Source: Hydrogenophaga flava NBRC 102514 (GTDB lineage Bacteria; Pseudomonadota; Gammaproteobacteria; Burkholderiales; Burkholderiaceae_C). From it: a stretch of DNA of 64,000 bases. Each line of letters begins with the position of its first letter. Within the stretch, counting starts at the first letter, position 1. Position numbers and translations under genes: made by a program. The notes below the pieces were generated by a model, which was not told the DNA's origin, made no database searches, and saw nothing but the letters and a program-made list of their open reading frames with translations. This document shows, one piece after another, positions 3,237-5,670 of this stretch. The DNA lies in assembly GCF_001571145.1 (NCBI RefSeq), contig NZ_BCTF01000015.1, positions 62,001-126,000 of the forward strand, given 5' to 3'.

Positions 3237-4223
3237 TTACTTGAGCCAGCCGCGCTTGCGGAAGTACAGCATCGGCACCACGGCCGACAGCACCATCAGG
3301 CCGAGTGCAAACGGGTAGCCCCACTTCTGGCTCAGCTCGGGCATGTACTGGAAGTTCATGCCATAGAGGCTGGCGATCAGCGTCGGCGGCAGCAGCGCCA
3401 CGCTGGCCACCGAGAAGATCTTGATGATCTTGTTCTGGTTGATGTTGATGAAACCGACCGTCGCGTCCATCAGGAAGTTGATCTTGTCGAACAGGAAGGC
3501 GGTGTGGCCGTCCAGCGAGTCGAGGTCGCGCAGGATCTGACGCGCGTCCTCGAACTGCTCGGCATTCAGCATGCGGCTGCGCATCAGGAAGCTGACCGCG
3601 CGGCGCGTGTCCATCACGTTGCGGCGGATGCGGCCGCTCATGTCCTCGTGGCGCGCAATGGCGGCCAGCACCTCGCCGGCCTTGTTGTCCGTCACGTCGC
3701 CCGCGAGCACCTGGCGGCTGACCTGTTCCAGGTCGTCGTAGATGTCTTCGAGCGTGTCGGCGCAGTATTCGGCGTCGGCGTCGAACAGCATCAGCAGCAC
3801 GTCCTTGGCGTTCTCGATCAGGCCGGGCATGCGCCGCGCGCGCATGCGCAGCAGGCGGAACACCGGCACGTCCTCGTCGTGGATCGAGAACAGCACGCCC
3901 TGGCTCTTGAGCTCGGCGTTGTGCTGGTTCAGGATGAAAGCGACGCGAATCGCGCGCGGGTTTTCGTCGTCGTCGATCAGGAAGTCCGAGCGGATGTGCA
4001 GCTCGCCGTTGTCTTCCTCGAAGAAACGGGCCGATTCTTCGATGTCCTCGTCCATCGCGTCTTCGGGGATGGACAGGCCGAAGTGCTGTTTGACCCAGCG
4101 CCGCTCTTCGGGCGTGGGGTTTTCGAGGTCCACCCAGATGGGTTTGAAGCGGGTCAGCTCTTCGAGCGACTCGATTTCTTCCTGGAACAGGCGGCCGTTG
4201 GCCAGGGTGAAGACGTTGAGCAT
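3237..4223 (-). CDS. corA: Magnesium/cobalt transporter CorA
   Basis: Pentameric inner-membrane channel for Mg2+ (also Co2+ and Ni2+). The 328 residues show the long acidic, helical cytoplasmic N-terminal domain, the first membrane helix ending in the diagnostic YGMN (GMN about 288-290), a short periplasmic loop, the second helix, and a positively charged tail FRKRGWLK. Start ATG has a GGGAG upstream. It lies 178 bp downstream of the patatin gene on the same strand, with a structured leader in that gap. It converges on the DapB-like gene with only 13 bp between stops. Confidence 0.94.
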   Translation of the reverse strand: MLNVFTLANGRLFQEEIESLEELTRFKPIWVDLENPTPEERRWVKQHFGLSIPEDAMDEDIEESARFFEEDNGELHIRSDFLIDDDENPRAIRVAFILNQHNAELKSQGVLFSIHDEDVPVFRLLRMRARRMPGLIENAKDVLLMLFDADAEYCADTLEDIYDDLEQVSRQVLAGDVTDNKAGEVLAAIARHEDMSGRIRRNVMDTRRAVSFLMRSRMLNAEQFEDARQILRDLDSLDGHTAFLFDKINFLMDATVGFININQNKIIKIFSVASVALLPPTLIASLYGMNFQYMPELSQKWGYPFALGLMVLSAVVPMLYFRKRGWLK

Positions 4224-4289
4224 GGGGGCTCCCGGGCAAATGGTCTGGCGGAACCGGGCGCAGGTGCGCGCCGGTGGGCGGTTCGGACG

Positions 4290-4385
4290 GCGCTTTCAGC
4301 CGGCCGCCCGCCTTTGCATCAGACGGTCGCGGGGAGGGCTGAAAGCACACGACTGGGCGGTGTGCTTTCCATGAGGAGCTTTCAG
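4290..4385 (-). promoter_or_regulatory. corA 5' leader with mutually exclusive hairpins
   Basis: Seen directly (plus-strand coordinates): segment C at 4337-4350 reads GGCTGAAAGCACAC. Its GAAAGCACAC (4341-4350) pairs perfectly with GTGTGCTTTC at 4360-4369 (10 bp, 9-nt loop). Its GGCTGAAAGC (4337-4346) pairs perfectly with GCTTTCAGCC at 4292-4301 (10 bp). Its CTGAAAGC (4339-4346) pairs with GCTTTCAG at 4378-4385 (8 bp). Only one pairing can form at a time. The region lies entirely in the corA leader. I infer an RNA switch or attenuator; no T-run follows, so control could be Rho-dependent or translational. Confidence 0.5.
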
Positions 4386-4401
4386 AATCGGGAAGCCCGA
4401 A

Positions 4402-5670
4402 TTATGGCATCGCCCCGTTGCGCAGCGGGGTGTCGGAATGCGCGAAAAAGGCCTTGATCTCGGCCTGCTTGCGCCAGGCGTCGTGCTCGCCCAGCTCCAT
4501 CAGGGCGTTGACGAACGGGGGTTCGAACATCAGGTAGCTGGCCAGCGAGGCCGCACTGCCGGCCGCGCCGCGTCCGGTGTCCAGCGCCCCGAGTCCGATC
4601 AGCGTGTTGCGGGTTGTTGCCGGCAGGCTGTCGATGTGCTTGTGGGTCAGCTCATCCAGCGAGAAGCTGGGCTGCAGGGCCAGCACCCGCACCGGGTGGT
4701 AGGGCAGGGCCGCGGCGAGCCCGTGGGGCAGCTGGGCCAGGGTCTGGCTCACGCGCTGGGCCTGCTCGACGTCGGCCTGCAGGGTGTCGTGGAACACGCT
4801 GGCCATCGCATGACCGGCGATGGTGCCTGCCGTGGGTTCGTCGGCCACCCGGGCCGCCAGTCCCGAGCGCTGGGGCTGGCCGGCGCCGATGGCCAGGATG
4901 CGACGGGCGCCGAACTGGATCGCGGGCGACAGCGGTGAGAGCTGCCGCATCGAGCCGTCGCCGAAGTGTTCCCGGTGACCGTCGACCCAGAGTGGCACGG
5001 CTGGAAACAGGAAGGGGATGGCGCTGGAGGCCATCAGGTGCTCGACCGTGATGGGCTGGAAGTCGGCGCGCCGCCCGGGCCGGTGCCAGGGCTTCAGCGG
5101 ATGCCCGGGCCGGATCTGGCAGAAGGTCCAGTGCTCGCCGGTGGAGTAGCTGGACGCGGTCACACCCAGGGCCTCCAGGTGCCCGTCGGCCAGACCGAGT
5201 TCCAGGCTGCGCAGATCAATGGCCCGGTGGAGGGTGTCCACCAGCGGGAGGGTGTCGAGCAAGGCGCGGTGGCGACGCACCTGGCGTGCGAGCGTGAGCC
5301 CGGCGACGATGCGGTTGGCGCGAACCCAGTTGGGCGCATCCAGGCGGTAGACCCGTTCCGAGCGCAGGGCGCTCCAGAACGCGGACAGTTCGTGGAAGGC
5401 CTGCAAGCCCTGCGCGGCGTGGCTGGCCAGGAAGGCGGCGTTGAGCGCACCGGCCGAGGTGCCAAACAACCAGCGGAACGGGAAGCCACTGCCGGGCATC
5501 GAGCCGGCGCTGCGCCAGTGGCTGTGCATCACGGCGATCGCCTTGAGCACCCCGGCCTGGTAGGCGGTGCGGGCACCGCCCCCCATCAGGACCAGCGCGC
5601 AGGCGCCGTCGTCCGTCGGCGCAGGAGCGGGGCTCAGCAGGTTGTAGGTGATCAGCGTATCGAGGGACAC
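4402..5670 (-). CDS. Patatin-like phospholipase
   Basis: Predicted serine lipid acyl hydrolase using a Ser-Asp dyad. The oxyanion-hole glycine run MGGGARTAYQAGVL begins at about residue 29, the nucleophile elbow GTSAG at 70-74 (Ser72), and the DG of the dyad in HFGDGSMRQLSPL at about residues 237-239. The 422 residues include a C-terminal extension beyond the patatin core. No signal peptide, so probably cytoplasmic or peripheral. Start is GTG at 5670 (no ATG fits); divergent from the MFS gene with 42 bp between them. Confidence 0.87.
   Translation of the reverse strand: MSLDTLITYNLLSPAPAPTDDGACALVLMGGGARTAYQAGVLKAIAVMHSHWRSAGSMPGSGFPFRWLFGTSAGALNAAFLASHAAQGLQAFHELSAFWSALRSERVYRLDAPNWVRANRIVAGLTLARQVRRHRALLDTLPLVDTLHRAIDLRSLELGLADGHLEALGVTASSYSTGEHWTFCQIRPGHPLKPWHRPGRRADFQPITVEHLMASSAIPFLFPAVPLWVDGHREHFGDGSMRQLSPLSPAIQFGARRILAIGAGQPQRSGLAARVADEPTAGTIAGHAMASVFHDTLQADVEQAQRVSQTLAQLPHGLAAALPYHPVRVLALQPSFSLDELTHKHIDSLPATTRNTLIGLGALDTGRGAAGSAASLASYLMFEPPFVNALMELGEHDAWRKQAEIKAFFAHSDTPLRNGAMP

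Follow-up and report, generated by a model that had tools for sequence, protein, structure and literature searches.

In the trp leader and comparable amino-acid attenuators, a leader peptide accompanies a choice between 1:2 and 2:3 pairing. Expression of the transporter gene corA of E. coli drops as Mg2+ rises, with the involvement of Rho, and translation of corL, a short upstream open reading frame (uORF) with a UUG start, is inverse to corA expression: stems A and B of the leader (the OFF state) exclude stem C (the ON state), as described in PMC11552253. The E. coli genome carries at the position of corL the annotated, TTG-started small gene ysgD (MDTPSRYWLTILSSRINS). PMC11552253 and PMC11282234 likewise present the mgtA leader, which precedes another Mg2+ transporter gene, as a choice of two folds coupled to a uORF, mgtL, with early acidic and proline codons, which the MgtL model treats as a destabilizing motif, EPDP (PMC11282234); for both the mgtA and corA leaders, the sensor of Mg2+ is given as unsettled, whether RNA folding, uORF translation, or both (PMC11552253). 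Searches of open papers (subscription papers lay mostly beyond the search) yielded neither an account of such a leader or of CorL from beyond the enterobacteria nor a relevant catalogued structured RNA before corA, and the main text of PMC2864571 does not mention corA.

We analyzed a window of 64,000 nt from Hydrogenophaga flava NBRC 102514 (contig NZ_BCTF01000015.1, positions 62,001 to 126,000), in which corA lies on the minus strand and encodes a protein whose closest relative among the matches listed is that of Hydrogenophaga pseudoflava (99% identity). The upstream gene, which from its translation we take to be patatin-like, is on the same strand and ends at 4402, and the leader in the 178-bp gap before corA is present as a single copy in this genome. 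We consider it reasonably probable that this leader is a translation-coupled attenuator of the CorL type, built on another RNA scaffold in Comamonadaceae-type bacteria. Its features, read along the corA strand, are as follows:

4401..4409, minus strand: extended -10 TGCCATAAT, a conserved NATAAT with TG, the -10 itself at 4406..4401
4378..4385, minus strand: 8-bp third arm CTGAAAGC, not conserved
4319..4372, minus strand: CorL-like uORF MESTPPSRVLSALPATV, ATG start and TGA stop, peptide beginning MESTPPSR
4360..4369, minus strand: arm S1 GAAAGCACAC, uORF codons 2-5, from repeat search and covariation
4337..4350, minus strand: arm S2 GTGTGCTTTCAGCC, partner of S1 or of S3
4292..4301, minus strand: arm S3 GGCTGAAAGC, from repeat search, covariation and RNAalifold
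4234..4291, minus strand: linker, rich in C across the family and possibly where Rho loads
4229..4233, minus strand: GGGAG, likely corA ribosome site, from sequence
3237..4223, minus strand: corA, from a homology search with the annotated E. coli CorA (48% identity)

Three perfect stems can form within the gap: 4292-4301 with 4337-4346 (10 bp), 4341-4350 with 4360-4369 (10 bp), and 4339-4346 with 4378-4385 (8 bp). Because their arms overlap on one strand, they are mutually exclusive, just as the first-pass annotation had proposed when it described three stems sharing 4337-4350. Among 3000 dinucleotide shuffles of the gap, any perfect 10-bp repeat occurred in 80, three 8-bp repeats with a common base occurred in one, and the observed three-stem pattern occurred in none; the folding energy of the gap, computed for the plus strand (corA being on the minus strand), was unremarkable (z -0.65). 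Comparison with relatives separated the three arms: relatives conserve the ability of 4337-4350 to pair with 4360-4369 and with 4292-4301, supporting the annotation's idea of an attenuator-like leader before corA, with alternative partners for a single strand, but 4378-4385 was rejected as a conserved third arm, being found in the window alone (one of the 77 leaders defined below) and corresponding in relatives to what is usually the GGAG ribosome site of a uORF. That conserved uORF, which overlaps both S1 and S2, had been overlooked.

Using pattern searches and two hand additions (L003 and L047, neither of which has an S3 score), we recognized the leader in 76 of the best 80 of 588 corA loci, and these together with the window constitute the 77 leaders referred to throughout; the leader is absent from L013, L025 and L029, L032 is cut and too short for recognition, and L068 has kept the uORF and lost S2. 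On the corA strand, the order is an extended -10, a ribosome site (usually GGAG), the uORF (containing S1), S2, a loop of 8-86 nt, S3, a C-rich linker, a ribosome site, and corA. No more than 90 nt ahead of the uORF, 76 of the 77 leaders have NATAAT, preceded by TG in 72; none of 77 control stretches has it. Whether a promoter would include the arms had been named as a check on the proposal, and the conserved extended -10 lies upstream of all of them, with transcription in the window predicted to start at approximately 4394; a plain -35/-10 consensus scan, which requires a -35, detected no promoter. The upstream gene's stop codon (4402-4404) falls within the -10 of the corA leader (4401-4406).

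A putative uORF lies between promoter and corA in 76 of the 80 loci and in the window; its sequence is conserved, and it may be translated. It spans 7-20 codons: a 7-codon form with TAG inside S2 is present in 39 of the 77 leaders (METYPSW, METYPSR, METTPSR and others, METYPS followed by R or W and a stop being a frequent peptide in relatives), 14 leaders, mainly Variovorax-type, have 13 codons, and Hydrogenophaga-type uORFs mostly have 17. Codon 2 is acidic in 74 of the 77, codon 5 is Pro in 75 (in four spellings), and codon 6 is Ser in 58 (AGT/AGC in 45 and TCT in 13, from two codon boxes) and Pro in 18. The spacing between start codon and S2 core is 23 nt for 63 leaders and 26 nt for 13, the S2-less leader having 19 nt, and a ribosome-site-like string within 20 nt before the uORF start is absent in six of the 77. 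The uORF patterns admitted only ATG, GTG and TTG, so the start-codon counts constitute no independent evidence. In one locus (L205), the uORF reads MEASPSPSR, a 6-nt in-frame repeat having doubled the Pro-Ser pair.

Pairing between S2 and S3 was assessed in an alignment (A1) of 50 of the 77 leaders, consisting of those with a loop of at most 24 nt plus the window, L002, L012 and L049. S2:S3 is paired in 93.7% of 600 cells (33-57% in slid controls), with 46 cells changed on both sides vs 14.4 in shuffles and a covariation score of 0.321 vs 0.168, neither value being reached in 500 shuffles; of five measures, the two less telling were the number of pairs with a double change (6; 68/500 shuffles) and of pair types (18; 10/500). 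RNAalifold, unguided, recovered the same helix. For S1:S2, 79.2% of cells are paired vs 76.9% in shuffles (0/500) with a covariation score matched in 6/500, and neither double changes (91/500) nor pairs with a double change (438/500) stood out. Part of the match between S1 and S2 follows from the peptide, because both arms carry codons, and given the weak covariation on this wide alignment, coding sequence could therefore explain the S1:S2 match there. In one lineage (L070 and L204), S2 has GCTTGC for GCTTTC and S3 has GCAAGC for GAAAGC, which keeps S2:S3 and breaks one S1:S2 pair.

The Hydrogenophaga-type leaders were aligned separately (A3: 12 of the 13 leaders of the 26-nt kind plus L084, with L003 left out for its disturbed S1). 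Codon 4 is ACA in five leaders, all of which have TGT or CGT at codon 8, and ACG (once ATG) in eight, all of which have TGC or CGC: except for the ATG, these covarying changes are silent. The result is five double-change cells for S1:S2 vs 1.9 in shuffles (0/500), all at one pair, and another pair is open in 7 of the 13. The covariation in the window's genus may represent few evolutionary events. Judged from these alignments, both S2:S3 and S1:S2 are conserved, with S1:S2 covarying in the window's genus; the compensatory changes for which the first-pass annotation had suggested searching are thus present for S2:S3 and, within the genus, for S1:S2.

CorA was found in 111 of 120 sampled genomes of the family, and a covariance model of the leader (R1) matched in 49 of the 120, in every case 44-119 nt before corA and on the same strand; the remaining two of its 51 matches are the same hairpin on the opposite strand. 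We inspected 38 of the 62 CorA-containing genomes that lacked an R1 match, along with two that had one (no start of CorA was obtained in three of these 40 stretches), and 16 of the 38 (L221 by eye) form a second clade with the same layout in other letters. Their uORFs encode peptides such as MDSDHPR, MDVPPSR, MDTTPPR or MDSHPR, each followed by a stop, with S2 typically CCGTCCACTCC and S3 typically GGAGTGAGACGG; such a uORF was not seen in the other 22. An alignment (A2) covers 13 of these 16, L215 having been excluded because its loop is long and L221 and L225 having been missed by the pattern. In it, S2:S3 is paired in 97.9% of 142 cells, but the covariation is sparse and does not clearly exceed that of shuffles (55/500), and S1:S2 is paired in 86%, for which shuffles were equally good (154/500).

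The first-pass annotation saw by eye no match to the mgtA, M-box or enterobacterial corA leaders. Among the Rfam models, there is no family for this leader and no metal riboswitch, including Mg_sensor and M-box, that matches it; a known riboswitch was rejected on that basis. The enterobacterial corA leader, by contrast, is resembled in both its uORF and its topology. As in the E. coli and Salmonella leaders described in PMC11552253, there is a uORF before corA, with a similar peptide N-terminus (M, an acidic residue, Ser/Thr, Pro, Ser and Arg), the uORF lies inside a first stem that excludes a second, and a pyrimidine-rich stretch lies ahead of corA: S1:S2, with the uORF, would correspond to stem A and S2:S3 to stem C. 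The CorL of E. coli has 18 codons (same source), whereas the uORFs here have a stop that often falls within S2, and the RNA letters differ, R1 giving no match up to E 1 in E. coli and other Enterobacterales loci (L082, L229, L230, L231, L241, L242 and L245). The leader looks like a distant counterpart of the E. coli switch.

The window's MESTPPSR is similar to the MDTPSRYWL... of E. coli, with one or two residues inserted, but is too short to prove descent. Enterobacterales loci with a CorA at least 67% identical to that of E. coli have a CorL-like uORF in 13 of 19 cases (MDTPSR, MDIPGR, MDIPSR, MDSHSR), and a strict CorL pattern with a ribosome site is found before 27 of 39 corA genes vs none of 129 other genes of the same loci, as delimited by a simple ORF caller. 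A loose pattern gave 20 matches over 141 upstream regions, some of them duplicates, with those in L128, L139 and L250 looking like chance. Another Burkholderiales family has uORFs with a TTG start in 14 of 33 loci (12 MGSP, one MGSH and one MGSR); these lie approximately 200-250 nt before corA with other hairpins downstream (L115, L259-L263, L265, L268, L270-L272, L275, L276 and L283). The lineages between Enterobacterales and the window's group are mostly without the motif, and because it is short and missing from most of these intervening lineages, its sequence likeness may be due to either common descent or convergence. One Rfam family, RF02899 (AaHKsRNA54), does match a corA leader, at its beginning, in the Enterobacterales-order genome L242, whose uORF encodes MDSHSRYRISL; it is catalogued as an sRNA and has no match in the window, in E. 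coli or in the Comamonadaceae-type loci tested. At L242:1270-1380, where it covers the start of the MDSHSR uORF, this "sRNA" may be a corA leader fragment.

No intrinsic terminator was found on the corA strand between 3900 and 4700, the sole site there being on the plus strand at 4162-4174, and an attenuator ending in a hairpin and U run was rejected. The leader shares with the trp type a leader peptide and the 1:2 or 2:3 choice, but has neither a U-run terminator on the corA strand nor a run of a single codon in the uORF. The linker averages 48% C and 17% G, with C exceeding G in all 75 leaders scored, and in a fixed interval C exceeds G in 74 of the 77 leaders vs 38% of the 129 control genes, a composition that fits Rho loading but is no proof of it. 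In many relatives, the 5' half of S3 is able to pair with the linker, like a B stem: over 69 thinned leaders, with S3 located by simple patterns, this S3:S4 pairing has a mean z of -1.21 (19 of 69 at p<=0.05) vs 0.06 in a reversed-linker control. The S3:S4 stem expected by analogy was not seen in the window (z +0.51), and the case for it as a general part of the leader is weakened.

Sequence comparison reveals conservation of the promoter, the uORF, S2:S3, S1:S2 within the genus, the position before corA, and the likeness to CorL; with these parts, the behavior of the ribosome on the uORF probably sets the amount of transporter. Transcription would begin near 4394, and a ribosome would enter the short CorL-like uORF, in which S1 makes up the first codons. 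Given the size of the ribosome footprint, a ribosome held near the beginning of the uORF would mask S1 but not S2, such that S2:S3 forms; efficient read-through would let S1:S2 re-form behind the ribosome, releasing S3. By analogy with E. coli, S1:S2 would be the OFF state, in which the C-rich linker is open to Rho or the corA ribosome site is less accessible, and S2:S3 would be the ON state, favored at low Mg2+ when the uORF is poorly translated. Mg2+ sensing, the role of Rho and the direction of the switch are all carried over from that comparison.

How the ribosome might respond to Mg2+ is addressed by a sub-mechanism of the CorL-type attenuator, in which, as in MgtL, acidic and proline codons would cause the ribosome to drop off at low Mg2+. 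The acidic codon 2 and the Pro within codons 4-6 speak for such peptide-level destabilization, as does MEPDP, the MgtL motif, in two of the 77 uORFs. But EPDP (the motif of PMC11282234) is confined to those two, only six of the 77 have two acidic residues among the first eight, the related Burkholderiales family has Gly at position 2 in 14 of 33 loci, and an early repeated motif of the EPDP type is not in the window, MESTPPSR having one acidic residue. As a general signal, MgtL-type destabilization is weakened, and we regard it as somewhat doubtful.

A switch acting on translation only, without Rho, is unlikely. Here S1:S2 would let a CUCC beside S2 cover the corA GGGAG, and S2:S3 would free it: the window's best fold does pair CUCC with GGGAG, and of 74 leaders, 34 have a more accessible corA site with S2:S3, but 15 have a more accessible one with S1:S2 (means 0.37 vs 0.31), and several leaders lack CUCC or GGGAG. 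Cover by CUCC is a weak trend, and the view that the switch acts mainly by covering the corA ribosome site is weakened.

Distinctly improbable is a direct metal riboswitch, an RNA that itself binds Mg2+ or another CorA substrate and shifts between S1:S2 and S2:S3, with the uORF incidental. The two folds are nearly equal in energy, as such a switch and the CorL-type attenuator would both have it: in the window, the alternative hairpins have -13.0 and -13.8 kcal/mol, the best leader folds -72.3 and -69.5 kcal/mol and the ensembles -78.8 and -78.2 kcal/mol, and the two folds lie within 5 kcal/mol in 47 of 74 leaders; corA is also the sole neighbor of the element in all 49 R1-positive genomes. But the conserved letters outside the stems are mostly in the uORF and vary codon-wise (the four spellings of Pro, the two boxes of Ser), no Rfam metal riboswitch matches, and the letters of S2 and S3 are rebuilt in the second clade, leaving little fixed RNA for a binding pocket. 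A hairpin serving the upstream gene, as its terminator or for processing, and lying before corA by chance is very improbable: S1:S2 is 30 nt past that gene's stop codon, but the corA strand has no U-run terminator at that point, all 49 R1-positive genomes keep the element in front of corA, and promoter and uORF are conserved along with the hairpin.

A further possibility, which we hold tentatively, is that CorL is an old, sequence-specific regulatory nascent peptide. Its motif (M, acidic or Gly, Ser/Thr, Pro/His, Ser/Pro, Arg) would have been preserved ahead of corA in Enterobacterales and several Burkholderiales lineages as the surrounding RNA was rebuilt, and the metal would therefore be sensed by this peptide in the ribosome rather than by the RNA. 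With a similar short peptide on different RNA, this second leader offers a natural test of which part does the sensing, and the 7-codon uORF offers itself as an object of study. The leader also suggests that many further bacteria control corA, for a long time regarded as constitutive in E. coli, through a uORF.
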